Below the pieces are notes generated by a model. That model did no database searches and was not told the DNA's origin. It saw only the letters and a list, made by a program, of their open reading frames with translations. This document shows, piece after piece, positions 8,852-45,526 of a stretch of DNA of 64,000 nucleotides. Origin of the DNA: Arthrobacter pullicola (GTDB lineage: Bacteria; Actinomycetota; Actinomycetes; Actinomycetales; Micrococcaceae); NCBI RefSeq assembly GCF_014836875.1, contig NZ_JACSQC010000002.1, forward strand, positions 574,834-638,833. Reading direction: 5' to 3'. Each line of letters begins with the position of its first letter. The stretch's first letter is position 1. Both the position numbers and the translations under genes were made by a program.

Positions 8852-8894
8852 CCCGGTTCCGCCGGGAACAGCACGCGCTGGGCGCTCCTCAGGG

Positions 8895-9326: not shown

Positions 9327-9361
9327 GGGGCGAGTGTAGGCCAGGTAGACGCGTCGCGACG

Positions 9362-18304: not shown

Positions 18305-18410
18305 CAGAAACTCCTTATCCGGGAAGGCGTTTCTAGACTGCTTCCTGCCCCCACCGCACATCTAGGTATACCGGAGCTTGGATCACTAATCGTAATCAGG
18401 GACACGCGGC

Positions 18411-23088: not shown

Positions 23089-23095
23089 TCAAAGC

Positions 23096-25789: not shown

Positions 25790-25791
25790 CG

Positions 25792-26319
25792 TTATTTGCT
25801 CTCCATAAATGTGTATCCATTAATGCGACGTACTGGCCTAACTTCCACCGAGGCAGGAGTTCGAAAATCTTGGCGACTAATCACGAATATGGACGTTCCC
25901 TCACTGGTTACCATATTGTAAAATCTGTAACCAAAGAGCAGAAAAAGCGGATTGAAATACAGGGCCTGAGACATAAATGTGAAAGCGAAGAGCACGGCGT
26001 ACACAAAGAGCAACGTTCTGATATCGGGAATGCTTAAAGCGACGAAAAAGTAACCCAGATAGCTGGGGAGAAATACATTGCTCGCGTGTTCAATAGACGC
26101 GATACTTCCCGCCTCGATGGCATCTCGTCCCAACGTCCGGCTCAGCAGGATGCCCAGACTCGTGAATAGGATCGGAACCATGATAAGGGCAACACTGAGC
26201 CCGTAGCGAATGCCGTCACCGAACTGCAGAAATAGAAAGGGTTCTTTAACCTGATAGATGACAACTAACAGTGAAGTCGCATTGAATGTTAATAATAGGC
26301 GTAATAAAAAAGTCCCCAT
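25792..26319 (-). CDS. kwaA: KwaA-like membrane protein, Kiwa anti-phage defence
   Basis: I prefer ATG 26319 (MGTFLLRLLLTFNATSLLVV, 175 residues) because AAAGG lies 6 bases upstream; an ATG at 26421 would give 209 residues with no ribosome-binding site. Four hydrophobic segments are visible, and near the C-terminus PLFLLFGYRFYNMVTSEG resembles the G-Y-x-F-Y region of KwaA. In Kiwa the KwaA tetramer senses phage attachment at the membrane and works with KwaB. A promoter-like pair (TTGAAC 26358-26363, TAAAAT 26334-26339 on the minus strand) would give an almost leaderless transcript from this start. Confidence 0.7.
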   Translation of the reverse strand: MGTFLLRLLLTFNATSLLVVIYQVKEPFLFLQFGDGIRYGLSVALIMVPILFTSLGILLSRTLGRDAIEAGSIASIEHASNVFLPSYLGYFFVALSIPDIRTLLFVYAVLFAFTFMSQALYFNPLFLLFGYRFYNMVTSEGTSIFVISRQDFRTPASVEVRPVRRINGYTFMESK

Positions 26320-26424
26320 AAGCAGCCTTTGTGATTTTATCTCGTGAACGATATCAAGTTCAATTGCCTGCGGCACCCTTTCGACAGTTACAACCGTCCA
26401 CCAATGATAGATTTTCATCAAATG

Positions 26425-27488: not shown

Positions 27489-28940
27489 CTAGGCCGAAAC
27501 CCGCCGCTCCTCAGCATCCGCCCGGTTCAGCTCCACGTACTCGCGCTTCGGCAGCCCCACAGACGCCGGAACGCCAGGAAGCTCCTCGCCGCGCAGCGTG
27601 GCCTGGGCGGTCTCCCGCATGCAGAGAATGCTGACCAGACCGATGACACCGGCAATCGCCATGTACCAGCCGGGCACCAGCTGGTTGCCGGTAGTCTCGA
27701 TCAGCTGGTTGGCGATGGTCTGCGAAGGGCCGGCGAAGAACGCGGTGGAGAAGTTATAGGCGATCGCGAAGCCGGTATAGCGGACCGCGGTCGGGAACAT
27801 CGCCGGAAGCGTCGAGGACACCGAAGACACCAGGATCACCAGCAGGAAGCCCAGCACACCCAGGCCGATGAACTGCAGCACCAGGTTCTCCATGCCCAGC
27901 AGCGCAATCGCCGGGACGGACAGCACCGTGTACCCGACAGCGGCCGCGAGCAGCAGCGGCTTGCGGCCAATCCGGTCGGACAGTGCACCGACTGGAGGAA
28001 TAGCCACCAGCATCAACGCCATCACTACCACCAGCATCCAGTTGCCCTGCGCGGTGCTGTGCCCCAACTGCCCGCTCAGGTAGGTCGGCATGTAGCCGAG
28101 GATCAGGTAGAACGCCACGTTCAGCAGCACCACAAACCCGGCCACAATCAGCAGCTGCCGCCAGTTGTTCCGCAGCACGGTCCGCAGCGGCGACTTGGTG
28201 GTTTCCTCATGCTCCGACGCTTCCGTGTAGACAGCAGCCTCCGTCAGCCGGGTCCGGATCCAGAGGGCGGTCAGGCCCAGCGGAATGGTCAGCAGGAACG
28301 GCAGCCGCCACCAGCCAGCCTCCATGCCGGCATCCCCCACAATCGCGATCAGCGTGGTGCAGACAATCGCGGCCATGATGAAGCCCACCGTGGTGCCGAA
28401 CTCCAGGAAGGAGCCGAAGAACCCGCGGCGCTTATCCGGCGCGGACTCCGCCATGTACACCGCAGCTCCGCCGTACTCACCGCCGGCGGAGAAGCCCTGC
28501 ACCAGGCGGCAGATCAGCAGCAGGACCGGAGCGAGCAGGCCCACGGTCTCCAGCGTCGGCAGCAGCCCGATCGCCCCGGTGGCCAGCGTCATCATGGTCA
28601 CGGTGAGCACCATAACCTTCTGCCGGCCCACCCTGTCCCCCAGCGGACCGAGGATCAGCCCGCCCAGCGGCCGGACCAGGAAGGAAAGCGCCAGGGTGGC
28701 GAGTGTCAGCGTGACCCCCAGGCCGCCGTCGCCCTCCGTGGAACCGAAGAAGTTCACCGCCATATAGATGGTGAGGTAGCCGTAAACGCCGTAGTCGAAC
28801 CACTCGACGGCGTTGCCCAGCGCCGCGCCCAGGATGGACCGGTGGAGCGAGCGTTTGCCTTCGGAGGTGCTGGGCTCGGAGCCCGGCACTGCCTGCGGTT
28901 CCGGGTGCCTGCCTTGCGTGGGCTGTGAACTGGTGGTCAT
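27489..28940 (-). CDS. MFS transporter of the metabolite:H+ symporter (MHS/ProP-like) family
   Basis: 483 residues with about twelve membrane helices. Family motifs: NAVEWFDYGVYGYL in helix 1, GDRVGRQKVMV in the loop after helix 2, GFSAGGEYGGAAVYMAE in helix 5 and the second-half copy SDRIGRKPLLL. These are hallmarks of the MHS group (proline/betaine/ectoine, citrate, shikimate and ketoglutarate carriers). It is the last gene of the minus-strand catabolic set, 141 bases after the dehydrogenase, and probably brings in the pathway substrate; a compatible solute such as ectoine would fit the neighbours. Confidence 0.88.
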   Translation of the reverse strand: MTTSSQPTQGRHPEPQAVPGSEPSTSEGKRSLHRSILGAALGNAVEWFDYGVYGYLTIYMAVNFFGSTEGDGGLGVTLTLATLALSFLVRPLGGLILGPLGDRVGRQKVMVLTVTMMTLATGAIGLLPTLETVGLLAPVLLLICRLVQGFSAGGEYGGAAVYMAESAPDKRRGFFGSFLEFGTTVGFIMAAIVCTTLIAIVGDAGMEAGWWRLPFLLTIPLGLTALWIRTRLTEAAVYTEASEHEETTKSPLRTVLRNNWRQLLIVAGFVVLLNVAFYLILGYMPTYLSGQLGHSTAQGNWMLVVVMALMLVAIPPVGALSDRIGRKPLLLAAAVGYTVLSVPAIALLGMENLVLQFIGLGVLGFLLVILVSSVSSTLPAMFPTAVRYTGFAIAYNFSTAFFAGPSQTIANQLIETTGNQLVPGWYMAIAGVIGLVSILCMRETAQATLRGEELPGVPASVGLPKREYVELNRADAEERRVSA

Positions 28941-29081
28941 GGGTTTGTCCTTTAGTGAGTGGTTTGGCTAGCAAGGGTGGTGCCAAGTTCGGGAATCCGG
29001 CCGGTGTGCCAGTCCCCATCACGCTCAAAATCAGTCCCGCAGCAGCCCGGGCCTTCGCCCCGGGGCTACCAGTCACCAGGC

Positions 29082-30566
29082 CTACCGGGGCACGGCCAGG
29101 TATTTCGTTTCCAGGAATTCCTCGATCCCCACCCGCCCTCCTTCACGGCCCAGCCCGGAGGCCTTGATCCCGCCGAACGGTGCCGCCGGATTGGAGACGA
29201 TCCCGGTGTTGAGTCCCACCATGCCGACCTCCAGCGCATCCCCCATCCGGAACCCGCGGTCCACGTCCTGCGTGAACAGGTAGCCGACCAGCCCCCACGG
29301 GGTGTCATTGGCCAGCCGGGTGACTTCTTCCTCGGTGTCGAACGGGACCACGGGGGCCACCGGGCCGAAGATCTCCTCGCTCATCAGGTCCGAATCCGGG
29401 CTGACCCCGGAGAGGACCGTCGGTGTGTAGAAATAGCCGGGCCCCTCCGGCCGCGACCCGCCGCAGACCACCTCCGCGCCCTTGGCGACGGCGTCGTCCA
29501 CCAGCTCCTGCACCTTGGTGAGTGCCTTCTCCTCCACCAGGGGCCCGACGTCGGTGCCCGGCTCCGCACCGTTGCCCACCGACAGTGTGCTCAGGCGGGC
29601 GGCGAGCCGGCGGGCGAACTCGTCCGCCACCGACCGCTGCACAAACATCCGGTTGGCCGCGGTGCAGGCCTCGCCCATGTTGCGCATCTTCGCGGCGACG
29701 GCACCGTCCACGGCGCGGTCCAGGTCCGCGTCCTCGAACACGATGAACGGCGCGTTCCCGCCCAGTTCCATCGAGGAGCGCATCACATGCTCAGCGGCCT
29801 GGCCCAGCAGGCGCACACCCACTTCGGTGGATCCGGTGAAGCTGACCTTCCGGGCGATGCCGCTGGACATCCACGGCGACACCACCTTCGAGGCCTTCGA
29901 CGTCGGCACCACGTTCAGCACCCCGGCGGGCAGCCCGGCCTCCACCAGGATGTCCACCAGCACCAGCGAGGACAGCGGGGTCAGGTTCGCGGGCTTGAAC
30001 ACCATGGTGCATCCGGCGGCGATGGCCGGGCCGATCTTGCGGGTGCCCATGGCCAGCGGAAAGTTCCACGGCGTGACCAGCACGCACGGACCCACGGGTT
30101 CCTTCGAGACGATGATCCGGGTCTTGCCGTCGCCGGTGGTGGTGGCGTCGCCGCCGATGCGCACGGCTTCCTCGGAGAACCAGCGGAAGAACTCGGCCGC
30201 GTACGCCACTTCCCCCTTGGCTTCGGCGAGCGGCTTGCCCATTTCGGTGGTCATGATCAGCGCCAGCTCGTCCTGCCGGGCCATGATCAGGTCATAGGCG
30301 CGGCGCAGGATCTCGCTGCGCTCCCGGGGAGCGGTCGCAGCCCACTCCTTCTGCACCCGGCCGGCGGTTTCGATCGCCCGCTGGGCGTCCTCCGGGCCGC
30401 CGTCGGCCACCGTAGCGACGACCTCTTCGGTGGCGGGATTCACGACGTCGAACCGCGCACCGGACGCGGCGTCGGCCCACTGCCCGTCGATGAACAGGCC
30501 GGTACTGACCTTGGCGATGGCGTCGAGGGCCTGCTGCGAGGTGCGGGTGCTGGTTTGGGTTGTCAT
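29082..30566 (-). CDS. NAD(P)-dependent succinate-semialdehyde-type dehydrogenase (GabD family)
   Basis: 494 residues from ATG 30566 (MTTQTSTRTSQQALDAI). The aldehyde dehydrogenase fold is complete: TEMGKPLAEAKGEV, VTPWNFPLAM, FTGSTEVG, MELGGNAPFIVFED with the general-base Glu, NMGEACTAANR with the catalytic Cys, and SEEIFGPVAPV. Closest by motif to succinate-semialdehyde dehydrogenases. In this cluster it could instead oxidise aspartate semialdehyde, the DoeC step of ectoine breakdown. The start overlaps the upstream stop by 4 bp. Confidence 0.88.
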   Translation of the reverse strand: MTTQTSTRTSQQALDAIAKVSTGLFIDGQWADAASGARFDVVNPATEEVVATVADGGPEDAQRAIETAGRVQKEWAATAPRERSEILRRAYDLIMARQDELALIMTTEMGKPLAEAKGEVAYAAEFFRWFSEEAVRIGGDATTTGDGKTRIIVSKEPVGPCVLVTPWNFPLAMGTRKIGPAIAAGCTMVFKPANLTPLSSLVLVDILVEAGLPAGVLNVVPTSKASKVVSPWMSSGIARKVSFTGSTEVGVRLLGQAAEHVMRSSMELGGNAPFIVFEDADLDRAVDGAVAAKMRNMGEACTAANRMFVQRSVADEFARRLAARLSTLSVGNGAEPGTDVGPLVEEKALTKVQELVDDAVAKGAEVVCGGSRPEGPGYFYTPTVLSGVSPDSDLMSEEIFGPVAPVVPFDTEEEVTRLANDTPWGLVGYLFTQDVDRGFRMGDALEVGMVGLNTGIVSNPAAPFGGIKASGLGREGGRVGIEEFLETKYLAVPR

Positions 30567-33500
30567 GCGGTTTCTCTTTCTCTGTCTGTGGAAGTTCTGT
30601 CTGTGACGGGCCCCGGATCGAGGAGCTGGGCCAGATGGGTGCCCGGCCGGGCGGCGTCGAGCTGCTTGACCTGCATGACGCAGGAGAAGCCGTCGGTCAG
30701 GATTACGGTGTCCGCGCTGGTGTCCCACATCGCCGGGGCGAGGGCTTGCTCGGCTACCTGCATGCTCACGTCGAAGTGCTCCTTTTCGAAGCCGAAGTTC
30801 CCGGCCACGCCGCAGCAGCCGGTCGCGTCGACCACGCTGGGAACCCCGACGGCGGCCAACGCGGATTTCTGCGTTCCGGCACCGAAGACGGAGTATTCGT
30901 GGCAGTGCGTCTGCAGCACCACCTGCTCCGGCAGCGGCACCGCGGGAGACGGCGTCCAGCCGCCCGCGGACAGTTCGCCCACGTGCGCCGCGAAACTTTG
31001 AACCCGGGCGGCGACCCGGCGGGCCTGCTCGGTGGGAATCAGCTCCGGCAGGTCCTTTCGCAGCGCGGCGGCACAGCTGGGCTCGACGACGACGATGGGC
31101 CTCTCGGTCCCGTCGTCCAGCACCTGCGCGGCGTTGGCCAGGAGCTTCTTGGCGGTGTCCAGCTGGCCGGTGGAGATCCAGGTCAGGCCGCAGCAGGCGT
31201 CCGCGGAGCATTCCGTCCGCTCCCCCGCACCGGTCAGCACGCGGGCGGCGGCACCGGCGACTGCGGGGCGGAAACCGCGGGTGAAGGTGTCGACGAAGAG
31301 CAGGACGCCGTCCGTCGGGTTCGGGGACGTAAGGCCATCAGTCCGCCGGGGCATCTCCACCCCGGCAGCTGCCAGTTCTGTCCGCCATTCCCCCGCGCCG
31401 GCGAAGCGGGGCAGGGAGCGTTCGGTGGTGAGGCCGCCGAGCTTCGCGGCGAGTTTGTCGAGCGGGGTGGCCAGCACTGCGTTGACCAGTGGTGCCACCC
31501 GGCCGGTGAGCTTGAGCCAGCGCGGCAGCCAGCCGAGCGAGAAGTGCGAGAGTGGCCGTAGCCGGCCGCGGTAGTAGTGGTCGAAGAACTCCGACTTGTA
31601 CGTCGCCATGTCCACGCCGGTGGGGCAGTCGCTGGAGCAGGCCTTGCAGGAGAGGCAGAGGTCAAGGGCCTCGCGGACCTCCTCGGATTTCCAGCCCTCC
31701 TGCACGGTGCGGGCGCCGCGGACCATGTCCTGCAGCACCCGGGCCCGGCCCCGCGTGGAGTCCTTCTCATCCCGGGTGGCCCGGTAGCTGGGGCACATCA
31801 CGCCGCCGGCATCGGTGCGGCAGCGGCCGACCCCGATGCAGCTCTGCACCGCATGAACAAACGGATCCACCGCGGCCCCGGGAGCAGGGTCGTCAGTCTC
31901 CACCGACGACCCTCCCCCGGCGTGCAGCGGCCGCAGGTCGAAGCTGGTGCGCCATTCCCGCGCGGGCACCCCGTCCAGCGCCAGGTGCTCATCGATCGGA
32001 TCCGGATCGGTCAGCGATCCCGGGTTCAGGATCCCGGCCGGGTCCCACAGCCGCCGGTACGCGGTGAACGCCGTGAGCAGACGTGGGGAGTACATCAGCG
32101 GCAGCAGCGCGGACCGGGCCCGGCCGTCGCCGTGTTCGCCGGAGAGCGAGCCGCCGTGCTGCACCACCAGCCGGGCGGCGTCGGCGGAGAAGGTCCGGAA
32201 CACGTCCCTCCCGGCCGCGGTGCGCAAGTCATAGGTGATCCGGATGTGCATACACCCGGCGCCGAAGTGCCCGTACATCACACCCTGCAGCCCGTACTGG
32301 TCCAGCAGGTTACGGAAGTCGGCCAGGTAGTCGGCCAGCTTTTCCGGTGCGACGGCGGAATCCTCCCACCCGGGCCAGGACTCACCGCCGGTGGACAGCC
32401 GGGAGGACAGCCCGGCGCCGTCTTCCCGGACACGCCAGAGCGAGCCCCGCTCCACGTCGTCGGGCACCGGGCGGCCTTCGATCAGCCGGCCGTTCTCGGC
32501 GAGCCTAGCCAGCAGCCGGTCCGCCGCGGCCTGCACGGAGGCCGGATCGTCGCCGTCGAGGTCCACGTACAGCCAGGCCTTGCCCGCGGGCAGGCCGGTC
32601 ACCGAGCCGGCGCCGCGGCGGAAACGCATGGTGTCCACAATGGCTTCGTCGATCCCCTCCACTGCCGCCGGGGAAAACTCCAGGATGGTTTCGATATCGC
32701 GGGCTGCCTCCACCACGTCCGCGTAGCCGAGGCAGACCAGCAGCGCGCTGGCCGGTTTGGGCACCAGCTTCATCCGCGCGCCGACAATCACGGCACAGGT
32801 CCCCTCGGAGCCCACCAGTGCGCGGGCCACGTTGAAGCCGTGTTCCGGCAGCAGGTTGGCCAGATGGTAGCCGGAAACCTGGCGCTGGATCCGGCCGAGT
32901 TCTACCCGGAAGTCCGCCAGGTTGGCGTGCGCCAGCTCCTGCAGACCCGCGGCCAGTGCAGCGGCCCGCCGCTCAGAAAAACTGTCCGCCGGGTCGGTGG
33001 CGTGCAGTCCCGTGGCCGTGGCGGTGAGCCGGGCGCCGTCGGCCGTGACGACGTCGATCTCCGTCACATGGTCCGAGGTGCGGCCGTAGCGCACGGAGTG
33101 GTTGCCGCAGGCGTCGTTGCCCAGGGCGCCGCCCACGGTGGCGCGGTTCTTCGACGACGGATCCGGGGCGAAGGTGAAACGGTTGCCGGTAGCCTGCTCC
33201 ACCTCCCGGGACAGGACAGCGAGGACGACGCCGGGGTCCACGGCCACGGTGCCGGTGGCCTCGTCGATCCCGTGGATGCGGTTCAGATGCCGGGAGAAGT
33301 CCAGGACAACGCCGGGGCCAATCGCGTTGCCGGCCATGGAGGTGCCGCCGCCCCGGCTCACCAGCGGTGTTCCGGTGTCCCGGCAGACCGCGAGGACGGC
33401 GACGACGTCGTCCACCGACCGCGGGAACACCACGGCCAGCGGCGGCACCCGGTAGTTCGACGCGTCATAGGAGTACTCGGCCAGCCGCCGCGGCGAAGCA

Positions 33501-33601
33501 TCGGCAGGAATCCCCGCCGCGGCCAGCGCCGCCAGCAGCCCACCGCTGCCCGGTCCGCCAGCCGGAGCTGCGGACGGGGCTGCGATGCCGGTTTTTGTCA
33601 T
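30563..33601 (-). CDS. FAD-binding and [4Fe-4S] fusion oxidoreductase (D-2-hydroxyacid dehydrogenase, YdiJ/Dld type)
   Basis: 1,012 residues in two parts. Residues ~40-540 form a PCMH-type FAD domain (VSRGGGTSMAGNAIGPGVVL; SGEHGDGRARS) and lactate/glycolate-oxidase-like cap. Residues ~600-1000 are a Fe-S oxidoreductase with LCLSCKACSSDCPTGVD and later cysteine-rich CCG-type motifs (DACCGLTW, ATGCCGVAGNFG) of the GlpC/LutA kind. Such fusions oxidise D-2-hydroxyglutarate or D-lactate-like acids and pass electrons to quinone. Overlaps of 4 bp at both ends tie it to the aminotransferase and aldehyde dehydrogenase. Confidence 0.87.
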   Translation of the reverse strand: MTKTGIAAPSAAPAGGPGSGGLLAALAAAGIPADASPRRLAEYSYDASNYRVPPLAVVFPRSVDDVVAVLAVCRDTGTPLVSRGGGTSMAGNAIGPGVVLDFSRHLNRIHGIDEATGTVAVDPGVVLAVLSREVEQATGNRFTFAPDPSSKNRATVGGALGNDACGNHSVRYGRTSDHVTEIDVVTADGARLTATATGLHATDPADSFSERRAAALAAGLQELAHANLADFRVELGRIQRQVSGYHLANLLPEHGFNVARALVGSEGTCAVIVGARMKLVPKPASALLVCLGYADVVEAARDIETILEFSPAAVEGIDEAIVDTMRFRRGAGSVTGLPAGKAWLYVDLDGDDPASVQAAADRLLARLAENGRLIEGRPVPDDVERGSLWRVREDGAGLSSRLSTGGESWPGWEDSAVAPEKLADYLADFRNLLDQYGLQGVMYGHFGAGCMHIRITYDLRTAAGRDVFRTFSADAARLVVQHGGSLSGEHGDGRARSALLPLMYSPRLLTAFTAYRRLWDPAGILNPGSLTDPDPIDEHLALDGVPAREWRTSFDLRPLHAGGGSSVETDDPAPGAAVDPFVHAVQSCIGVGRCRTDAGGVMCPSYRATRDEKDSTRGRARVLQDMVRGARTVQEGWKSEEVREALDLCLSCKACSSDCPTGVDMATYKSEFFDHYYRGRLRPLSHFSLGWLPRWLKLTGRVAPLVNAVLATPLDKLAAKLGGLTTERSLPRFAGAGEWRTELAAAGVEMPRRTDGLTSPNPTDGVLLFVDTFTRGFRPAVAGAAARVLTGAGERTECSADACCGLTWISTGQLDTAKKLLANAAQVLDDGTERPIVVVEPSCAAALRKDLPELIPTEQARRVAARVQSFAAHVGELSAGGWTPSPAVPLPEQVVLQTHCHEYSVFGAGTQKSALAAVGVPSVVDATGCCGVAGNFGFEKEHFDVSMQVAEQALAPAMWDTSADTVILTDGFSCVMQVKQLDAARPGTHLAQLLDPGPVTDRTSTDRERETA

Positions 33602-34905
33602 CGGCGCTCCGTGGTTGCTGCAGTGGTTGCAGTCGTGGCAGCGGCCGGAACAGCGCCAGTCACGGCGGCCAGGGCGGCTTCGAAGCGCTCCAGCCCCAGG
33701 CCGATTTCCTCGGCAGTGACCACCAGGGCCGGGATCAGCCGGACCACGTTGCCGGCCGGGCCGCAGGTCAGGGTCAGCAGGCCCTGGTCCGTGGTGGCCT
33801 GCTGCACCGCGGCGGCGGTCGCAGCGTCCGGTTTGCCGTCCGTGGCGGTGAACTCGATGCCCTGCATCAGGCCGCGCCCGCGGACGTCGCCGATCACCGG
33901 GAACCGGGCCTGGATCTCCCGCAGCCCGGCCTGCAGCTGTTCGCCGCGGACCCGCGAGTTCTCCACCAGCCCTTCCTCCCGCACCACTTCCAGGGTGGCG
34001 ACGCCGGCGGCAGCGGACACGGCATTGCCGCCGTAGGTGCCGCCCTGCGAACCCGGCCAGGCCTTGGACATGGTCTCGGTGGACGCGGCGATGGCGGAAA
34101 TCGGGAAGCCCGAGGCAATACCCTTGGCGGTGATGAGGATGTCCGGGGTGGCACTGGAGTACTGGTGGCCCCAGAATTTTCCGGTGCGGCCCACGCCGGC
34201 CTGGACCTCGTCGAAGATCAGCTGGATGCCGAACTTGTCCGCGCGCTCGCGCAGTCCCTCCAGAAACGCGCGCGGGGTGGGCAGGTAGCCGCCGTCGCCC
34301 AGCGCGGGTTCAATCAGGAACGCAGCGGTGTCCTTGGGATCGGTGCGGGTCTGGAGCAGGTAGTCGAGCTCCTGCAATGCGAAGGCGACGGCGGTGTCTT
34401 CGTCCCAGCCGTAGCGGTACGCGTAGGGGAAGGCGGACATGTGGACGCCGGCCATCAGCGGCGCGAAGCCGGCGGAAAACTTGGTGCCCGCCGTCGTCAG
34501 TGAGGCGGCAGCGACGGTGCGGCCGTGGAACCCGCCCTGGAACACCACAATGTTGGGCCGGCCGGTGGCCATGCGGGCCAGCCGGACCGCGGCTTCCACG
34601 GCTTCGGAGCCGGAGTTGGCGTAGAAGACGGAGTCCAGTCCGGCCGGGAGGACCTCGCCCAGCTTCTCGGTCAGCTCGAGCAGTGGTTTGTGCATCACGG
34701 TGGTGTACTGCGCGTGGATGATCTTGCCGACCTGCTCCCGGGCGGCGGCCACCACCTTCGGGTGGCAGTGCCCGGTGCTGGTGACGCCGATTCCCGTGGT
34801 GAAGTCCAGGTAGGACCTGCCGTCGGTCCCGTGGATCCAGCTGCCGAGGGCATGGTCCACGATCACCGGGGTTGCTTGCTTGAGGGCGGGGCTGAGGGAA
34901 GTCAT
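33598..34905 (-). CDS. Class III omega-aminotransferase (GabT / diaminobutyrate-type)
   Basis: About 435 residues from ATG 34905 (MTSLSPALKQATPVIVDHAL). PLP-enzyme features: FYANSGSEAVEAAVRLAR, GGFHGRT, IFDEVQAGVGRTGKF and the Schiff-base lysine in ITAKGIASGFP. The family includes GABA and diaminobutyrate (DoeD) transaminases; with a semialdehyde dehydrogenase two genes downstream it should make a semialdehyde from an omega-amino acid. It is the first gene of the minus-strand operon, divergent from the gene at 34971. Confidence 0.87.
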   Translation of the reverse strand: MTSLSPALKQATPVIVDHALGSWIHGTDGRSYLDFTTGIGVTSTGHCHPKVVAAAREQVGKIIHAQYTTVMHKPLLELTEKLGEVLPAGLDSVFYANSGSEAVEAAVRLARMATGRPNIVVFQGGFHGRTVAAASLTTAGTKFSAGFAPLMAGVHMSAFPYAYRYGWDEDTAVAFALQELDYLLQTRTDPKDTAAFLIEPALGDGGYLPTPRAFLEGLRERADKFGIQLIFDEVQAGVGRTGKFWGHQYSSATPDILITAKGIASGFPISAIAASTETMSKAWPGSQGGTYGGNAVSAAAGVATLEVVREEGLVENSRVRGEQLQAGLREIQARFPVIGDVRGRGLMQGIEFTATDGKPDAATAAAVQQATTDQGLLTLTCGPAGNVVRLIPALVVTAEEIGLGLERFEAALAAVTGAVPAAATTATTAATTERR

Positions 34906-34934
34906 GCCGTTATGATGCAGGTCACATCTGTCTA

Positions 34935-34962
34935 TTGTCAACAATCCTGCAATAGGGATACG
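34935..34962. promoter_or_regulatory. Divergent promoter with candidate GntR operator
   Basis: TTGTCAACAA at 34935-34944 is a TTGT-N2-ACAA palindrome of the kind bound by FCD-type GntR proteins, and it is followed by TCCTGCAAT. The nearly identical TTGTCTACAATCCT lies at 40606-40619, upstream of the cluster's own GntR gene. In the plus direction TTGTCA can serve as -35 with GATACG 16 bases later, so a bound regulator would block the gene at 34971 and probably also the divergent aminotransferase operon. Confidence 0.55.
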
Positions 34963-34970
34963 GTTGTGGC

Positions 34971-35954
34971 GTGAGTAACACTGTGAGCAAACCCCGTGTG
35001 GTTCTTCTTTCCGCCCAGGGCGTGGCCCTTCCCTTCAATCTGGACGCCCTTGAGGCCGTGGCGGACGTGACCGTGACCGACGCCGGGGGCCTTCCCCGGG
35101 CAGTTGCCGGCGCCGACGTCCTGTTCCTTTGGGACTTCTTCTCCTCCGCGCTTCAAGATGCGTGGCCGCACGCCGACGCGCTGAAGTGGGTGCATGTGGC
35201 CGCCGCCGGGGTGGACGCCATGCTGTTCGAGGAGCTGCGGTCCTCCGGCGTGGTGCTCACCAACGCGCACGGCACGTTCGACCAGCCGATCGCCGAGTTT
35301 GTGCTGGCCTCAATCCTGGCGCACAACAAGCAGCTGCACCTGAGCAAGCGGCTGCAGCAGGACTCGGTCTGGAAGCACCGCGAGCTGACCCGCACCGCAG
35401 GATCGCGGGCGCTGGTGGTCGGCACCGGCGGAATCGGCCGTGCCACGGCCCGGCTCCTGCGGGCCGTGGGCCTGGAGGTGCGCGGTGTGGGACGGACCCC
35501 GCGGGAGCAGGATCCGGACTTCGGCACGGTCGCGGCCAGCTCGGATCTCGCCGAGCACGCGGGCTGGGCAGACCACGTGGTCCTGGCCGCCCCGCTCACC
35601 GAACAGACCCGCGATCTGGTGGACGACGTCGTCCTGGCCGCCATGCAGCCCAGCGCGCACCTTATTAACGTCGGCCGCGGTGCCCTAGTGGACGAAGACG
35701 CACTGCTCCAGGCGCTGCGCCGGGGGCAGATCGCCGCCGCGTCGCTGGACGTGTTCCGCGAAGAGCCGCTGCCGGTGTCCCATCCCTTCTGGGGCCTGGA
35801 GAACGTCCACCTGTCCGCTCACATGTGCGGCGACGTCGTCGGCTGGCGCGACGCGCTCGCCCGGCAGTTCCAGGACAACCTGGAACGCTGGACGACCGGC
35901 GCGGATCTGGCCAATGTGGTGGACAAGCAGCGCGGCTACGTGAGCAGCAGATAA
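34971..35954 (+). CDS. D-isomer-specific 2-hydroxyacid dehydrogenase, NAD-binding
   Basis: 327 residues, GTG start close behind the promoter. The Rossmann motif VVGTGGIGRATARLLRAVG lies at ~145-163. The active-site set is present as NVGRGALVDE (Arg), FREEPLP (Glu) and SAHMCGD (His). It interconverts 2-oxo and D-2-hydroxy acids. Together with the FAD/Fe-S hydroxyacid oxidase on the other strand it suggests that a D-2-hydroxy acid arises in this pathway. The ribosome-binding site is weak, so translation may start near the 5' end of the message. Confidence 0.88.
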   Translation: MSNTVSKPRVVLLSAQGVALPFNLDALEAVADVTVTDAGGLPRAVAGADVLFLWDFFSSALQDAWPHADALKWVHVAAAGVDAMLFEELRSSGVVLTNAHGTFDQPIAEFVLASILAHNKQLHLSKRLQQDSVWKHRELTRTAGSRALVVGTGGIGRATARLLRAVGLEVRGVGRTPREQDPDFGTVAASSDLAEHAGWADHVVLAAPLTEQTRDLVDDVVLAAMQPSAHLINVGRGALVDEDALLQALRRGQIAAASLDVFREEPLPVSHPFWGLENVHLSAHMCGDVVGWRDALARQFQDNLERWTTGADLANVVDKQRGYVSSR

Positions 35955-36050
35955 GCGCATACTCAGTTCTCTCAGTCTCTAAGGTCCTACTCAGCTCCAG
36001 CCTCGCCACCGTCGTCGAGGTCAAACCAACAACTATGTGGAGGTGCCCGC

Positions 36051-37232
36051 TTGCTGTTCAGCCAAGAGGAATACGATGCCCGGCTCGCCGGGGTCCGCGC
36101 GCGGATGGCGCGGCAGGGGCTTTCCGCCCTGCTGGTGACCGATCCGGCCAATCTCTACTACCTCACCGGATACAACGCCTGGTCCTTCTACACACCGCAG
36201 GTGCTCTTCGTTCCTGCGGACGGGCCCATGCTGCTGTTCACCCGCGAAATGGACGCCGGCGGCGCGACCCGCACCAGCTGGCTTCCGCCGGAAAACATTG
36301 TGGGCTACCCGGAGCGCTATGTGCACCGCCCGCACCTGCACCCCTTTGACTGGGTGGCATTCGCCCTCCGCGAGCGCCACCTGATCGCTCCGGCCGCAGC
36401 GGGCTGCGTGGGCCTGGAAATGGACTCGCACTTCTTCTCCCCCAAGGCCTACCGCTCTCTGGTCAACGCCGTGCCGGAATGGACGCTGGTGGACTGCTTC
36501 GAACTGGTGAACTGGGTCCGCTCGGTCAAGTCCCCCGCGGAGCTTGAGCTGATGCGCCAGGCCGCCCGGATCTGCAACGGCGCCATGGAAGCGGCCGTCG
36601 CGGGCATCGCCGTCGGCGTCCGCCAGTGCGACGCCGCCGCCGCCATCAGCTCGGCGCAGATTTCCGGTGTGGACGGCATCGGCGGGGACTACCCCGCGAT
36701 CGTGCCGATGCTGCCCACCGGCGAGGCGGCGGACACCCCGCACCTGACCTGGAGCGAGGAGAGGTTCGAGGCCGGGCAGGCCGTGGTGGTGGAACTCGCC
36801 GGTGCGTACCACCGCTATCACGCGCCGCTGGCCCGCACCGTGGTGCTGGGGCCGCCGTCGGACCGGCTCGCAAAACTGGCCGACGCCGTCGCCGACGGAC
36901 TGGATGCCGTCCTCACCGAAGTCCAGCCCGGCGTGCCGGTGCACGAGCTCGCCCGGACCTGGAACCGGACGCTGGCCAAGTACGGCTTGGAAAAGCCCTC
37001 CCGCATCGGGTACTCGATCGGCATCGGCTATCCGCCGGACTGGGGCGAACGCACCATCTCCCTCCGCTCTGAGGACGAGACCGTCCTGGCGGAAAACATG
37101 ACCTTCCATCTGATCGGCGGTATGTGGATGGATAACTACGGCTACGAACTCTCCGAATCAATCCGCGTCAGCCCCGACGGCGTGGAACCCCTTACCAGCT
37201 TCCCGCGGGAACTGCTCCAGAAAGGCAGCTAG
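36051..37232 (+). CDS. M24-family hydrolase, probably ectoine hydrolase (DoeA-like)
   Basis: 393 residues, TTG start with GGAGG (36039-36043) 7 bases upstream. An N-terminal creatinase-like domain (LLVTDPANLYYLTGYNAWSF) is followed by a pita-bread domain. Segments closely match the DoeA/EutD ectoine hydrolases as I remember them: GGDYPAIVPMLPTGEA, ADTPHLTW, YHAPLARTVVLGPP, GYSIGIGYPPDWGERTISLR and MTFHLIGGMWM. DoeA opens the ectoine ring to N-acetyl-2,4-diaminobutyrate. A general Xaa-Pro peptidase is less likely given these motifs. It is followed after 3 bases by an aminotransferase and then an M20 deacetylase. Confidence 0.75.
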   Translation: MLFSQEEYDARLAGVRARMARQGLSALLVTDPANLYYLTGYNAWSFYTPQVLFVPADGPMLLFTREMDAGGATRTSWLPPENIVGYPERYVHRPHLHPFDWVAFALRERHLIAPAAAGCVGLEMDSHFFSPKAYRSLVNAVPEWTLVDCFELVNWVRSVKSPAELELMRQAARICNGAMEAAVAGIAVGVRQCDAAAAISSAQISGVDGIGGDYPAIVPMLPTGEAADTPHLTWSEERFEAGQAVVVELAGAYHRYHAPLARTVVLGPPSDRLAKLADAVADGLDAVLTEVQPGVPVHELARTWNRTLAKYGLEKPSRIGYSIGIGYPPDWGERTISLRSEDETVLAENMTFHLIGGMWMDNYGYELSESIRVSPDGVEPLTSFPRELLQKGS

Positions 37233-37235
37233 CCC

Positions 37236-38498
37236 ATGACCCTGAACTCCCTTGACGCTTCCGCCACCAGCCCGCGGGCCGAACTCCCGCTGGCGGACCG
37301 GGCAGCCAGCCTGGTCGGTTCCGTGATCGATTCCAGCACCTCGCTGCTGGCCTCGCAGACCCATGACATTGTGCGTTTCGCGATGGGCTCCCCCGCAGAC
37401 GAGGCGGTGCCGCTGGAGGTGTTCCGCGACATCAACGCGCAGGTCCTGGACCACAGTTCCCTGACCTACGGCGCCACCGAGGGCGAACCGGTGCTGCTCA
37501 ACGCCCTGGTGGACTATCTGGCCGGCACCTCGGACCCGGTGGACCCCGAACGGATCACCATCACCGCCGGCGGGATGCAGGGCCTGGATCTGGCCTGCAA
37601 GATCTTCATCAACCCCGGCGACCTCGTGATCGTGGAAAGCCCCACCTACACCAACGGCAGCGCCACCGCCCTGAGCTACGGCGCCGAGCTGCTGGAAGTT
37701 CCGGTTGACCAGGACGGCCTGATCGTGGAGGCACTGCCGGAGCTCGTGGCCGCCGCCGGCCGCACCCCCAAGGCCATCTACACCATCCCCAACTTCCAGA
37801 ACCCTTCCGGCGTGACGCTCTCCCTGCCGCGCCGGCAGCGGCTGCTGGAGCTCGCGCACGAGTGGAACGCCGTCATCATCGACGACGATCCGTACGGACT
37901 GCTGCGTTTCCAGGGCGAGGACCTGCCGTCCCTGCAGGCGCTGAGCCCCGGCGATCCGTTGCTGTTCTCCGTCCGCACCTTCTCCAAAATCCTGGCTCCG
38001 GGCCTGCGCGTGGGTTGGGTGGACACCGATCCGGCGGTCCGCCAGCTGGTCATCAACGCCAAGCAGGCCATGGACACCTGCACCAACGTCCCAGCCCAGC
38101 ATCTGGTGGCCGAGTTCATCCGCCGCGGCGGCCTGGACAATCATCTGGCCGGGCTCCGTGTGGAGTACAAACGCCGCAAGGACGCCATGCAGCAGAATCT
38201 GCGCCGGCACCTTGGCAGCCGGATCACCACCACCGACCCCGAGGGCGGCTTTTTCCTCTGGCTCACCCTGCAGGGCGAGGACGCACGGATCTCCACTCAG
38301 AAACTGTTCGAAACGGCCCTGGCTGAGGGGGTGGCGTTTATCCCCGGTCCGGCCCTTTCGGCCAGCGGAAAGTTCGACGACGCCCTGCGTTTGTGCTTCG
38401 CGTCCACCACTCCGGAGCGGGCTGAGGAAGGAATTCTCCGGCTGCGCCAGGCGATGGACCGGGAACTGGCGGCGGTCAAGGGCGGATCGGGGACATGA
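37236..38498 (+). CDS. PLP-dependent class I/II aminotransferase (MocR/2-aminoadipate type, no HTH)
   Basis: 420 residues. The fold-type-I core is clear: LTYGATEGEPVLLNALVDYL, YTIPNFQNPSGVTLSL, IIDDDPYGLLRF and the PLP lysine in VRTFSKILAPGLRVGW. This family includes 2-aminoadipate and multi-substrate transaminases and the C-terminal domain of MocR regulators, but no winged helix precedes it here, so it should be an enzyme. It starts 3 bases after the M24 gene and overlaps the M20 gene by 4 bp. It may handle diaminobutyrate or an alpha-amino intermediate. Confidence 0.87.
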   Translation: MTLNSLDASATSPRAELPLADRAASLVGSVIDSSTSLLASQTHDIVRFAMGSPADEAVPLEVFRDINAQVLDHSSLTYGATEGEPVLLNALVDYLAGTSDPVDPERITITAGGMQGLDLACKIFINPGDLVIVESPTYTNGSATALSYGAELLEVPVDQDGLIVEALPELVAAAGRTPKAIYTIPNFQNPSGVTLSLPRRQRLLELAHEWNAVIIDDDPYGLLRFQGEDLPSLQALSPGDPLLFSVRTFSKILAPGLRVGWVDTDPAVRQLVINAKQAMDTCTNVPAQHLVAEFIRRGGLDNHLAGLRVEYKRRKDAMQQNLRRHLGSRITTTDPEGGFFLWLTLQGEDARISTQKLFETALAEGVAFIPGPALSASGKFDDALRLCFASTTPERAEEGILRLRQAMDRELAAVKGGSGT

Positions 38499-39778
38499 GC
38501 GCCCTGCCCCGCGTGAAGGACAAGGCTGGCCTTTCCGGCCTGGAGGAAAAGGTCCTGAGCCTGATCAGCGAGACGGACCTCGTCGCACTGACCTCTGCGC
38601 TGGTCGCGGCCGGAGGCGAGAATCCCGGCGGCGCGTATACACGGGGCACCGAGGAAGCCACCGTGGCCGTGCTGGCGGACTTCTGCCGCGGCGCCGGCTT
38701 GGAGGTCTCCACGGATCTGGTGGCTCCGGGCCGGCCGAATCTCACCGCCGTCCTGCCCGGCCGGAAGCAACCCGGCGGAACCCAGCCGCGCGCAACCCAG
38801 CCGGGGCTGCTCTTCCTGGGGCACTCCGACGTCGTGCCCGCCGGAGCCGGCTGGGACCGGCCACCGTTTCAGCCGTATCTCCGGGACGGCCGGCTGTTCG
38901 GCCGGGGCTCCACGGACATGAAGGGCGGACTGGCTGCGGTGCTGATCGCGTTTCAGGCGCTCCGGGCCGCCGGCGTCGAGCTGCTCGGCGGCGCTGCCCT
39001 GGCCTGCACCGTGGACGAGGAGGACCTGGGCATCGGCATCCGTGCCTACACGGCCGCGGCCCGGGTATCCGCGGCAATCGACGACCGGCGGTTCCCCTAC
39101 TCCGCGTGCGTGGTGGCGGAGCCGACCGATCTGGAGACGGTGATCGCCTGCCGCGGGGACAGCTATCTGGAGCTGACCGTCACCGGGAGGTCGGCGCACT
39201 CCGGCCGGCCCGCGGACGGCCGCAACGCCATCGACGCCGCGGCGAAGATCCTGGACCTGGTCCGCGCAGACCATGCCCGTCTGCAGGCCGACGCCGATCC
39301 GCTGCTGGGTTCCGGCACCTGGAACATCGGGCTCATCCGCGGCGGCACCGGCATCTCCATGGTGGCGGCGGAGTGCACGGTGTCACTCGACCGCCGGCTG
39401 CTGCCTGATGAGGACCCCCAGCTGATTCTCGAGACTCTGCTGGCCCGGATCCGTGAAGCCGGAATCGATGCGGACGGCATCTCGGTGACGGGCGCCGTGA
39501 CCATGGAGATGCCCGGCTTCCGCACACCGGCGTCGCACCCGCTGGTGACCAGTGCAGTGTCCGCGCTGGCCGACGTCGGCGTTACCAGCACTGTCACCGG
39601 CTGGTCCGCGGCGTGCGACGGCGGCTTCATTTCCCGCGATCTCGGCCTGCCGGTGATCGTGATGGGCCCGGGCGGACTCAACGACCAGGCACACCAGGTC
39701 AACGAGTCGGTCAGCATTGCTGAATTGCTCGCCGCCGCGCGGGCCTACGCACTGATGTGCCTGCGCCACGGCGCGTAG
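38495..39778 (+). CDS. M20-family amidohydrolase / deacetylase (ArgE/DapE-like)
   Basis: 427 residues. Metal and catalytic motifs: LGHSDVVPAG with the first His-x-Asp, GRGSTDMKGGLAAV with the bridging Asp, VDEEDLG with the general-base Glu pair and VVAEPTD. Between ~190 and 310 lies the dimerisation lid (LTVTGRSAHSGRP). Such enzymes remove acyl groups from N-acyl amino acids. In this operon it could deacetylate N-acetyl-diaminobutyrate, a job done by an AstE/AspA-type DoeB in described ectoine clusters. Start overlaps the previous stop by 4 bp. Confidence 0.87.
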   Translation: MSALPRVKDKAGLSGLEEKVLSLISETDLVALTSALVAAGGENPGGAYTRGTEEATVAVLADFCRGAGLEVSTDLVAPGRPNLTAVLPGRKQPGGTQPRATQPGLLFLGHSDVVPAGAGWDRPPFQPYLRDGRLFGRGSTDMKGGLAAVLIAFQALRAAGVELLGGAALACTVDEEDLGIGIRAYTAAARVSAAIDDRRFPYSACVVAEPTDLETVIACRGDSYLELTVTGRSAHSGRPADGRNAIDAAAKILDLVRADHARLQADADPLLGSGTWNIGLIRGGTGISMVAAECTVSLDRRLLPDEDPQLILETLLARIREAGIDADGISVTGAVTMEMPGFRTPASHPLVTSAVSALADVGVTSTVTGWSAACDGGFISRDLGLPVIVMGPGGLNDQAHQVNESVSIAELLAAARAYALMCLRHGA

Positions 39779-39857
39779 CGGGGTTGGGTGCCGGGGACAT
39801 ACCCGGTCGGTCCGCGGGCACGGATTCCCGCGCGGCCCCTAACGCCGTCGCGGGCCC

Positions 39858-40577
39858 CTACGCCGTCGCGGCCTGCGGGGTGCTGCCGCCGGTGAGCCGC
39901 TGCAGGGCATCGTCCATGTGGGTGATCAGCAGCCGGCCGACGAGCTCCTGGTCCCCCGCGGCCAAGGCTTCGGCAATGGCCTGATGCTCGTCCACGCGGG
40001 TCTGCGGGTCCGGATACCGTCGCTCCAACGCCGTGAGGCACATCCTGGTCTCGGTCAGCAGGGTGTTGTGCATCCGGGTGAGCCGCGGACTTTCGGCGGC
40101 GGCAACCAGCGTGGAGTGGTACGCCATATCGGCCTCTGACATGGCGTCCAGGTCACCTTTGAGGGCGGCTTCCTTCATGGTCCGCACCGTCTGCAGCAGC
40201 GTGGCCGCGACCTCCTGGCCGCCCCGCTGCAGGATCAGTTCCGCGGCGGCCCGTTCGACGGCGGTGCGCGCCACGTACATGTCCCGCACTTCTTCATCGG
40301 TCATGGTGATGACAAAAAGCCCGCGGTTCCGGATGCTGATCAGCAGTCCCTCCTGGGTGAGGCGCTGCATGGCCTCCCGCAGTGGACCACGGCTCACTCC
40401 CAGTTCCTTGGCCAGCTCCATTTCGACCAGTTGACTGCCGGGGGCGATCTGTCCACGTCCAATGGCGGTACGCAGTTTGCCGGCGATGATCGACGGCGTT
40501 GACTCGCGTTCCACGGGATCGAAAATTGCCATCGGGACCACATTCCGCTCGGGGCTCCGGGGCTGATCCCGGGCCAT
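39858..40577 (-). CDS. GntR-family regulator, FCD subfamily, of the catabolic cluster
   Basis: 239 residues from ATG 40577; ATG 40532 (MAIFDPVERES) is an alternative. The winged helix (MELAKELGVSRGPLREAMQ) is at ~52-70, followed by the helical FCD ligand domain with DMAYHSTLV and a late DEHQAIAEAL, the usual metal-site positions. Convergent with the M20 gene. A TTGT-N2-ACAA site about 30 bases upstream matches the one between 34905 and 34971, so it probably represses both its own gene and the divergon. Confidence 0.9.
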   Translation of the reverse strand: MARDQPRSPERNVVPMAIFDPVERESTPSIIAGKLRTAIGRGQIAPGSQLVEMELAKELGVSRGPLREAMQRLTQEGLLISIRNRGLFVITMTDEEVRDMYVARTAVERAAAELILQRGGQEVAATLLQTVRTMKEAALKGDLDAMSEADMAYHSTLVAAAESPRLTRMHNTLLTETRMCLTALERRYPDPQTRVDEHQAIAEALAAGDQELVGRLLITHMDDALQRLTGGSTPQAATA

Positions 40578-40605: not shown

Positions 40606-40615
40606 TTGTCTACAA
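40606..40615. promoter_or_regulatory. Candidate GntR auto-regulatory operator
   Basis: TTGTCTACAA, followed by TCCTACATT, repeats the TTGTCAACAATCCTGCAAT of 34935-34953 with few changes over about 19 bases. Position just upstream of the GntR start fits autoregulation. Confidence 0.55.
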
Positions 40616-41294: not shown

Positions 41295-42503
41295 TTACCG
41301 CGCACCCCTCCCCCGCCGGGCAAACCCGAATGCCACCGCGGCCAGCAGCACCAGGCCCTTGATGACCTGCTGCCACGCGGCGTCCACAGACAGGATGGAC
41401 AGGCCCTGGTTCAGCACACCCATCACCAGGCCGCCGATCACCGCACCCACCACCGTGCCCACACCGCCCTGCACCGACGCACCGCCAATAAAGACGGCGG
41501 CAATCGCGTCCAGCTCAAACCCGCCGCCGGCGGACGCCACCGCACCGCCGGCACGCGCAGTGCTGACGATGGCGGCCAGCCCGGCGAGGAAACCCATGTT
41601 TACGAACACCATAAAGTTGACCCAGCGCGTCTTCACCCCGGACATCAGGGCGGCGTTTAGGTTCCCGCCCATCGCGTAGATGTGCCGGCCGAACACGGTC
41701 CGGTTCAGCAGGAACGAATACGCCAGCACCAGGGCGGCAAGGATGATCAGGATGATCGGCGTCCCGCGGTTGTACGCCAGCAGATAGCACAGGTACATGA
41801 TCGCGGCGACGGCCACGGCGTTCTTGAACACGAAGGACGCCGTGCGTTCCCGCGGCAGGTCCAGCTTCTTCAGGTCGCTGCGGGCTTTGACCTGCTGCAC
41901 CACCAGCGCCACCGAGGCGAGCGCACCGATGCCCAGGGTGAGCAGGTCCGGGGTTCCCGTCACCGGCAGCGTGCCGGAGCCGATCGCGTTGAACTGGCGT
42001 GGCAGGCCGCTGATCGTTCCGCCGGTGAGCAGGATCAGCGCCACCCCGCGGAACACCAGCATCCCGGCCAGCGTCACAATGAACGCCGGAATCCCCACAA
42101 ACGCCACCCAAAAGCCCTGCCAGGCACCAATCAGCGCCCCCACCAGCAGGGACACAACGACGGCGGCCCACCAGGGCAGGCCCCAGCTGTTCATTGACAG
42201 CGCGGCAATTGCCCCCACCGTGGCAACCACCGAACCCACCGACAGGTCGATGTGCCCGGCGATAATCACCATGACCATGCCGATGGCCAGGATCAGCACG
42301 TAAGCGTTCTGCTGGATGAGGTTGCTGACGTTGCCCGGGTAGAGCAGCCGCCCGCCGGTCAGGACCTGGAAGAGCAGCACAATCACCACCAGTGCGGCCA
42401 GGATGCCGTATTGGCGCAGGTCGATCCGCATCCGTTTGCGCCCGGTGCCGTTCGGCGGCGGCGGGAGCGGGGATTTGGCCTGTTCGGAAGTTGTGGTGGT
42501 CAC
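41295..42503 (-). CDS. mmsB: Multiple-monosaccharide ABC transporter permease (MmsB/GguB)
   Basis: 402 residues with about ten membrane helices, XylH/RbsC-type permease. Features: [56 protein letters not shown] and [18 protein letters not shown]. The long form with a cytoplasmic insert around 190-220 is typical of GguB/MmsB. Start overlaps the ATPase stop by 4 bp. It works with the ATPase and ChvE-type binding protein encoded upstream to import sugars such as galactose, arabinose or xylose. Confidence 0.9.
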
Positions 42504-44128: not shown

Positions 44129-44206
44129 GTATGTCTCGCCTTACCTGATGGGGGAAGGCGGGGCACGACGGCGGCAGTCGCCGTCGTGCCCTGCGAACCG
44201 GGGTGG

Positions 44207-45328: not shown

Positions 45329-45526
45329 GGTCGAACCTTCGAAAAGGACCCGGCCGGCCAACACCAAAACGCACGCGGTAGGAAGAGCGGGAAGGCCACT
45401 TCCCGGACGACTGGGTCGAGCGGATACAACGCTGTAGCGCCTGAGTCGACGTCCTGCGGTCAACCATTTGTAGGCGAGCACAACTTAACTCCGCGCGAAG
45501 CCGCTCGGCAAGGGGAATTCCGATAG

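Follow-up and report, generated by a model that had tools for sequence, protein, structure and literature searches.

The soil bacterium Arthrobacter pullicola probably breaks down ectoine, a protectant against salt stress, by means of nine neighbouring genes that we identified in a 64,000-nucleotide stretch of its genome (contig NZ_JACSQC010000002.1, positions 574,834 to 638,833; we call this whole stretch the window). The genes are best read as a substrate-inducible ectoine catabolism divergon, that is, two divergent arms and a regulator gene. Ectoine as the substrate appears well supported by sequence: one of the proteins, the M24 hydrolase, resembles the ectoine hydrolase DoeA, and a palindrome in the promoter shared by the two arms is also found in relatives before ehuB, a gene of the ectoine transporter Ehu. 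More tentatively, we propose that the late steps lead through D-malate and bypass aspartate. From the protein families, residues, operons, palindrome and co-occurrence described below we infer all of the reactions and the contacts between regulator and DNA.

A nine-gene divergon

An earlier prediction, made from the sequence alone (the original prediction), had placed nine genes here, and open reading frames together with Pfam and NCBIfam profiles bear out their coordinates and families:

27489-28940, minus strand: MHS-family (ProP/TcuC-like) symporter (Pfam Sugar_tr and MFS_1)
29082-30566, minus strand: ALDH, aldehyde dehydrogenase of succinate-semialdehyde dehydrogenase (SSADH) type (TIGR01780, 585 bits, cut-off 646)
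30563-33601, minus strand: FAD/Fe-S D-2-hydroxyacid dehydrogenase (best NCBIfam model YdiJ, 448 bits, cut-off 1350)
33598-34905, minus strand: AT3, class-III aminotransferase of gamma-aminobutyrate (GABA) transaminase type (best PDB match GABA aminotransferase, 281 bits)
34935-34944, no strand assigned: operator-like palindrome TTGTCAACAA in the divergent AT3/DHDH promoter
34971-35954, plus strand: DHDH, NAD(P)-dependent D-2-hydroxyacid dehydrogenase (PF02826)
36051-37232, plus strand: M24, DoeA/EutD-like predicted ectoine hydrolase (best PDB match 6twk; TIGR02993)
37236-38498, plus strand: AT1, class-I aminotransferase of the LysN/KAT-II kind (an alpha-aminotransferase), with no DNA-binding domain
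38495-39778, plus strand: M20, deacylase of ArgE/DapE type, proposed DoeB replacement (TIGR01910)
39858-40577, minus strand: FCD-type GntR regulator (PF00392 and PF07729) with an operator-like site upstream
40606-40615, no strand assigned: operator-like palindrome TTGTCTACAA upstream of the GntR gene

The left arm (minus strand) holds AT3, the FAD/Fe-S gene, ALDH and the MHS carrier, and the right arm (plus strand) DHDH, M24, AT1 and M20. The arms are 65 bp apart with the palindrome in their common promoter, and the divergon that had been predicted is supported. Overlaps of 4 bp join ALDH to the FAD/Fe-S gene, the FAD/Fe-S gene to AT3, and AT1 to M20, and the carrier gene follows 141 bp downstream of ALDH. 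The longest possible frames of ALDH and AT3 begin upstream of the starts used here; the longer AT3 frame would start at 34944, and the palindrome lies upstream of the start used (34905), not of 34944.

The layout recurs, partly rearranged, in Arthrobacter, other Micrococcaceae, Williamsia, Gordonia, Kocuria, Glaciibacter and others, and is therefore not due to chance. The host genome comprises 3.6 Mb in 15 contigs, and judged by the M24 protein the host is close to Arthrobacter luteolus (97%). In a sample of 149 genomes of the family, the window's own genome is the only one of eight in the host genus with M24, so the cluster is accessory there. Compared loci and genomes are cited below, where needed, by our L and G numbers.

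M24 is a DoeA-like protein

Among solved structures, M24 matched 6twk ("Ectoine hydrolase DoeA") best, at 355 bits; we take the latter to be the Halomonas elongata enzyme. The next family, Xaa-Pro dipeptidase, reached 84 bits. We aligned M24 with 6twk, the Sinorhizobium meliloti pSymB homologue (taken as EutD, although its record is unannotated), Phaeobacter and Caballeronia proteins annotated doeA, and proteins from Ensifer, Shinella, Priestia, haloarchaea, four same-phylum genomes and actinobacterial relatives. Columns identical in at least 31 of 32 DoeA-like rows, 13 of which are close relatives of the window, were called near-invariant. M24 keeps all 75 such positions, including Glu248, the equivalent of Glu255 of 6twk, which reportedly has a covalent role; a DoeA2-like row keeps 45 of the 75, and three Xaa-Pro-like rows keep 24 to 29. 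In the tree, M24 falls in a 16-row actinobacterial clade (100/99), and the Xaa-Pro-like and DoeA2-like rows sit on very long branches, on account of which the deep order is unusable. By sequence, M24 is DoeA-like, within a wider DoeA-like group and beside the characterised clade.

It is very improbable that M24 is instead an ordinary Xaa-Pro or creatinase-type metallohydrolase in a cluster that degrades peptides or amino acids. Such enzymes share its Pfam families (PF00557 and PF01321), but the gap between the Xaa-Pro dipeptidase and DoeA scores, and the few near-invariant positions in the Xaa-Pro-like rows, with 24 and 29 of the 75 in the host's own two Xaa-Pro-like proteins, led us to reject an Xaa-Pro peptidase.

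Two side observations concern M24 elsewhere. On a Shinella plasmid (L085, 8074-11347), a long-branch DoeA-like M24 protein with 65 of the 75 positions stands with an M20 gene and a DUF1989 gene, and perhaps acts on another substrate. In G476 and G542, the M24 copy adjoining M20 shows one in-frame TGA in each genome, and a second copy without stops lies on another contig.

An M20 deacylase as the proposed replacement of DoeB

Of the 149 family genomes, 27 have M24; these 27, and none of the other 122, also have M20. None of the 149 genomes had a match over the cut-off to TIGR02994, the AstE-type DoeB model (a weaker match was obtained in 19 and none in the host genome), and PF04952 likewise matched in none. 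PF04952 is a 76-position "hybrid" domain, and the AstE-type protein of L135 matched PF24827 instead; PF04952 alone is therefore a poor probe, and TIGR02994 was used for DoeB. An AstE-type deacetylase elsewhere in the host genome was considered and not found by either model. These results support the view that M20 replaces DoeB, as originally predicted from the gene families.

M20 itself scored 206.9 bits against TIGR01910 (cut-off 217.6), and the residues that we take to be metal-binding and catalytic align with those of DapE. ArgE-type enzymes act on N2-acyl substrates, and N2-acetyl-diaminobutyrate is N2-acetylornithine less one carbon.

The claim that described clusters use an AstE/AspA-type DoeB proved incomplete. 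An M20-like "DoeB2" exists as NCBIfam model NF038260, which matches an M20-family protein, and the replacement principle is not new either, as the abgB amidohydrolase of putative Gram-positive clusters shows in the text of PMC13188858. In ten other genomes of the same phylum, DoeA scored 556 to 651 bits (six over the cut-off) and an M20 match adjoined it in eight; the one of those eight that was profiled is of acetylornithine-deacetylase type, over its cut-off. Given these M20 neighbours, DoeB2 and the Bacillus-type amidohydrolase, the replacement adds a new example to a known principle. The cluster resembles the DoeA2/DoeB2 type (NF038259 and NF038260) in that the deacetylase model matches an M20-family protein. 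It differs in its scores: M24 reached 215 bits against NF038259 (cut-off 575), and NF038260 was not among the 25 best models for M20, which puts M20 below 68.6 bits against it (cut-off 550).

A palindrome common to the cluster and the ectoine transporter

The motif TTGTCNACAA occurs three times in the window, where 0.13 would be expected. Two sites are those before AT3/DHDH and GntR; the third, at 22037-22046 (minus strand) inside a methyltransferase gene, may be chance. In 1.05 Mb of sequence from relatives other than Brevibacterium, TTGTNNACAA has 139 sites, compared with 1 to 12 for five palindromes of like composition and 1 to 5 for three palindromes of the same letters. It was not found in 24 Brevibacterium loci (467 kb).

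Among the genes examined in relatives, TTGTNNACAA is found in the 200 bp upstream of AT3 in 39/39, DHDH in 35/38, M24 in 33/53, GntR in 12/38 and the MHS carrier in 4/27. Its near-absence before AT1 (0/54), M20 (0/49), ALDH (0/43) and FAD/Fe-S (1/40) is as expected of genes inside operons. The palindrome also precedes the GntR gene in L004 and L005. These counts leave out the window itself (L001), L003, neighbour families o36-o39, and genes that have less than 45% identity or start less than 200 bp from a locus end, with Brevibacterium taken apart; they overlap the genome counts of the family sample (for example, G517:C38 and L079).

EhuB, which binds ectoine, is over its cut-off in 16 of the 149 genomes, 12 of the 27 with M24 and 4 of the 122 without. 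In six genomes ehuB lies within 35 kb of M24 on one contig (the G440 protein falls just short of the EhuB cut-off). Five of the six have the palindrome 101-167 bp before ehuB. EhuA, over its cut-off, adjoins the cluster in L007. In L118 (genome G517), ehuB, two permease genes and ehuA-like, RidA-like, two EutA-like, amidase and DUF3830 genes stand in a row that continues with M20-AT1-M24-DHDH and AT3-FAD/Fe-S, and six palindromes are found there, including those before ehuB, M24 and AT3/DHDH. Because the palindrome is common to the cluster and ehuB, it gives a link to ectoine that is independent of M24 similarity, and the earlier suggestion of ectoine as the likely substrate gains from it.

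In L118, the stretch from ehuA to the core cluster is taken up by the RidA-like, the two EutA/arylmalonate-decarboxylase-like, the amidase and the DUF3830 genes (7722-11966), and palindromes are found among these.

A proposed route through D-malate

The original prediction had all four Doe steps running to aspartate, and this is the part that our results do not favour. AT3 is by sequence closest to GABA transaminases and unlike DoeD: it showed 28-30% identity (120-157 bits) to two DoeD proteins, and is nearer to haloarchaeal aminotransferases than to DoeD. The genes that have no part in the Doe route are conserved with M24. Of the 27 M24 genomes, 21 have orthologues of both DHDH and the FAD/Fe-S enzyme (identity floors of 62% and 64%), and the remaining six have neither. 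All of the 21 have AT1 as well, whereas three of the six lack it. Because AT3 is nearest to GABA transaminases and the extra genes are co-conserved in these 21 genomes, the exit may not be aspartate.

The best PDB matches of AT1 are an archaeal "Aminotransferase II homologue", a multiple substrate aminotransferase and 2-aminoadipate transaminase, its nearest enzymes are of the archaeal AroAT-II, LysN and KAT-II kind, and the lysine of TFSKILAPG and the arginine of RLCF align with solved aminotransferases. A role for AT1 as a transcription regulator was rejected, since it has no helix-turn-helix domain and its nearest solved proteins are enzymes; against the EhuR model it scored 129 bits (cut-off 480), and the cluster has no MocR regulator of EnuR/EhuR type. 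DHDH matches phenylpyruvate reductase 8hpg and D-2-hydroxyacid dehydrogenase 5mh5 best in the PDB, and its alignment shows Arg, Glu and His residues that we take to be those of the motif typical of this family. The FAD part of the FAD/Fe-S protein resembles D-lactate and D-2-hydroxyglutarate dehydrogenases; YdiJ, its best model, describes a D-2-hydroxyglutarate dehydrogenase.

In the proposed pathway, the MHS carrier, whose best NCBIfam model is ProP (404 bits, below the cut-off of 544), would import ectoine, in several relatives alongside the Ehu ABC transporter. M24 would hydrolyse the ectoine ring to N-acetyl-diaminobutyrate (ADABA), most likely the alpha isomer, and M20 would deacetylate alpha-ADABA to diaminobutyrate. 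AT1 could then transaminate diaminobutyrate at the alpha carbon to 4-amino-2-oxobutyrate, which DHDH would reduce to D-4-amino-2-hydroxybutyrate (2-hydroxy-GABA). From this AT3 would form D-malate semialdehyde, ALDH would oxidise the semialdehyde to D-malate, and the FAD/Fe-S enzyme would presumably oxidise D-malate to oxaloacetate. The FCD-type GntR protein is predicted to bind TTGTNNACAA and to repress both arms and its own gene until the substrate or an intermediate binds.

In this scheme no enzyme gene is left without a step, and a hydroxy-GABA would require enzymes of GABA-shunt type, as AT3 and ALDH are. The extra genes had been taken to hint at a GABA-like N-acylated substrate; a GABA-like compound is retained here as an intermediate and not as the substrate. 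An order with the keto acid formed first, from gamma-acetyl-diaminobutyrate with AT1 acting before M20, was demoted to a variant on account of the N2-acyl preference of ArgE-type enzymes and because passages in the literature, including one of PMC7192451, name alpha-ADABA as what EutD makes or what the deacetylase acts on.

Alternatives and conflicting evidence

That the cluster follows the ordinary Doe route is a real, if doubtful, possibility: AT3 would be DoeD and ALDH would be DoeC, ectoine would end as aspartate, and AT1, DHDH and the FAD/Fe-S enzyme would serve a side branch, for example for 5-hydroxyectoine or for nitrogen or redox balance. DoeD belongs to class III, as do the GABA transaminases; ALDH shows 43-45% identity to two DoeC proteins; and AT1 persists in three genomes that have neither DHDH nor the FAD/Fe-S enzyme. 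EutB, moreover, was over its cut-off in none of the 149 family genomes, so that hydroxyectoine would need another route; 147 of them have a threonine-dehydratase match, which makes this search a weak one. Against this stand the low identity of AT3 to DoeD, the position of AT1 between M24 and M20 in one operon, and the palindrome-bearing promoter common to DHDH and AT3. Further, the four compared loci without DHDH and the FAD/Fe-S enzyme (L046, L128, L129 and L130) have aminotransferases closer to DoeD. It is unlikely that M24 was recruited from DoeA for some other N-acylated or cyclic-amidine substrate, GABA-like or derived from arginine. Such a substrate would agree with the score of M24 below its equivalog cut-off and its separate clade. 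It would also suit the palindromes that in relatives mark the amidase, DUF3830 and two EutA/arylmalonate-decarboxylase-like genes, for which we know of no role in ectoine breakdown. The complete set of near-invariant DoeA-like positions and the Ehu operon under the same palindrome in five of six linked genomes speak for ectoine. So does the fact that both racemase-like proteins have EutA as their best NCBIfam model, though at 84 and 99 bits (cut-off 318).

Several observations weigh against the D-malate route or against ectoine itself. M24 reached 425 bits against TIGR02993 (426 in the search of its own genome), below the equivalog cut-off of 613. The original prediction had named the DoeA clade in advance as the test of its claim; M24 lies inside the wider DoeA-like group, and outside the nine-row clade (97/96) that holds 6twk and the S. 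meliloti pSymB, Phaeobacter and Caballeronia proteins. The host genome has no EhuB match at E 1e-30, so it is by way of relatives that the cluster is linked to ectoine, and uptake in the host would fall to the MHS carrier; four genomes hold EhuB without M24, and in G416 ehuB is near M24 with no palindrome before it. FAD/Fe-S and DHDH orthologues occur in 7 and 4, respectively, of the 122 genomes without M24, and homologues of the FAD/Fe-S enzyme that are more distant occur widely (67 of 149 genomes at E 1e-150). G417, G512 and G521 have AT1 with M24 and M20 and without DHDH and the FAD/Fe-S enzyme; M24, AT1 and M20 are accompanied there by LysR regulators, the aminotransferase is nearer to DoeD, and two of these genomes have a short-chain dehydrogenase close by that could stand in for DHDH. 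G401 has AT1 and the FAD/Fe-S enzyme and no M24 or M20. Since the compared genomes are relatives, none of these counts is independent. In haloarchaeal loci, described below, no AT1 match was seen, and DHDH and the FAD/Fe-S protein are just 31-38% identical. Finally, a passage of PMC5924519 reports alpha- and gamma-ADABA at 2:1 from Halomonas DoeA in Escherichia coli, for which reason we call the alpha isomer only the most likely product.

Two further sets of loci deserve mention. In G401 (L134-L135), FAD/Fe-S and AT3 homologues, AT1 and an AstE-type protein lie on one contig within about 25 kb, possibly a different entry to the same exit route. A related M24 (64-67%) is present in the 24 Brevibacterium loci, in most of them with no cluster around it (an M20 match in two, AT1 in one); in L046 (7538-11164), M24 is divergent from a 161-aa frame, presumably Lrp/AsnC-like, and from the aminotransferase closer to DoeD. 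Most Brevibacterium genomes also encode ectoine synthesis, according to a passage of PMC5719810.

Comparison with known systems

Like the proteobacterial Doe/Eut clusters (doe of Halomonas, eut of Ruegeria and Sinorhizobium), the cluster has a DoeA-type hydrolase adjoining a deacetylase, a class-III aminotransferase and an SSADH-type dehydrogenase; some Doe/Eut clusters also include the Ehu transporter (L086, L144). Unlike them, the window has M20 and not an AstE-type DoeB, an FCD-GntR gene with no EnuR-type or AsnC/Lrp gene among the nine, an AT3 of GABA-transaminase type, and an additional alpha-aminotransferase, D-2-hydroxyacid dehydrogenase and FAD/Fe-S enzyme; EutB, too, is over its cut-off in none of the 149 family genomes.

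Putative Gram-positive clusters and the M20-like DoeB2 are already known. PMC7192451, in the passage seen, gives doeBDAC for Methylomicrobium alcaliphilum and Tsukamurella, so that a doe cluster has been reported in an actinobacterium; we would place the methanotroph DoeB in DoeB2. Boas Lichty et al. 2026 (PMC13188858) state in their text that ectoine breakdown is experimentally validated in a few Proteobacteria only, and that Gram-positive and archaeal clusters are provisional. Their putative Gram-positive clusters carry a EutD homologue without EutE, an abgB amidohydrolase and an aldehyde dehydrogenase gene, and our cluster (like the Priestia example, L083) resembles them in these points; the Bacillus type differs in having PucR, EutB, EutC, thrA and another aminotransferase. 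They also draw actinomycete clusters (Fig. 7) and report archaeal ones, compared here by text alone, and the main text makes no mention of Arthrobacter, "hydroxyacid", "M20" or "GntR". In open PMC papers we found none with both "ectoine" and "4-amino-2-hydroxybutyr", and among the open PMC titles and abstract openings listed no D-2-hydroxyacid branch, D-malate exit or GntR ectoine regulon in Arthrobacter.

M24 clusters also occur in haloarchaea, namely Haloprofundus, Halorussus, Halopiger, Natrialba, Halostagnicola, Haladaptatus and Halomarina plasmids, of which we examined nine loci from the listed matches (H1, H2, H4, H12, H13, H16, H17, H18 and H20). Like the window, they have a DoeA-like M24 (47-51%), an annotated amidohydrolase and a D-2-hydroxyacid dehydrogenase, and four of the nine have an FAD/Fe-S protein of the same YdiJ-like architecture. 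DHDH, the amidohydrolase and a threonine dehydratase stand beside M24 in seven, and the other two (L148, L149) lack the DHDH-amidohydrolase pair. Profiles were obtained for a single protein of each kind: an amidohydrolase (which matched the M20 model TIGR01891), a dehydratase, a DHDH and an FAD/Fe-S protein. Unlike the window, the haloarchaeal clusters have the threonine dehydratase, mostly a BCCT transporter, and an M20 of another subfamily.

Neighbouring genes

Just past the GntR gene lies a sugar-type ABC transporter (41295-45481; permease, ATPase and binding protein), which also follows the cluster in L005; no match was seen in L004. At 21868-23995, an island of low third-position GC content encodes a C5-cytosine methyltransferase and a NotI-like endonuclease (PF12183, 22.9 bits, cut-off 22), and is followed at 24965-26421 by two more frames of low third-position GC content with no Pfam match. 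Further upstream, at 14172-18361, a 987-aa AAA_5-domain protein and an adjoining 409-aa frame may form a McrBC-type restriction system.

A possible second route of ectoine breakdown

The cluster provides a concrete Gram-positive case in which the hint to the substrate, a palindrome common with the ectoine transporter, does not rest on the hydrolase, and it offers a specific protein as the candidate deacetylase, together with a pathway from which two unusual metabolites are predicted. No paper linking D-2-hydroxyacid enzymes to DoeA-like genes in actinobacteria and haloarchaea was found among the open PMC papers listed; the proposed pathway would explain why such enzymes stand beside DoeA-like genes in both. 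We raise, tentatively, a second ectoine route common to these groups, in which opening of the ring and deacetylation by M20 would be followed by loss of the alpha nitrogen, reduction to D-4-amino-2-hydroxybutyrate, and passage by an enzyme pair like that of the GABA shunt to D-malate and oxaloacetate. In actinobacteria AT1 would remove the alpha nitrogen; in haloarchaea a threonine-dehydratase-like enzyme would do so, starting from hydroxyectoine. The actinobacterial FCD-GntR at TTGTNNACAA would control the route together with the Ehu transporter. If true, this would be a route of ectoine breakdown that bypasses both aspartate semialdehyde and aspartate.

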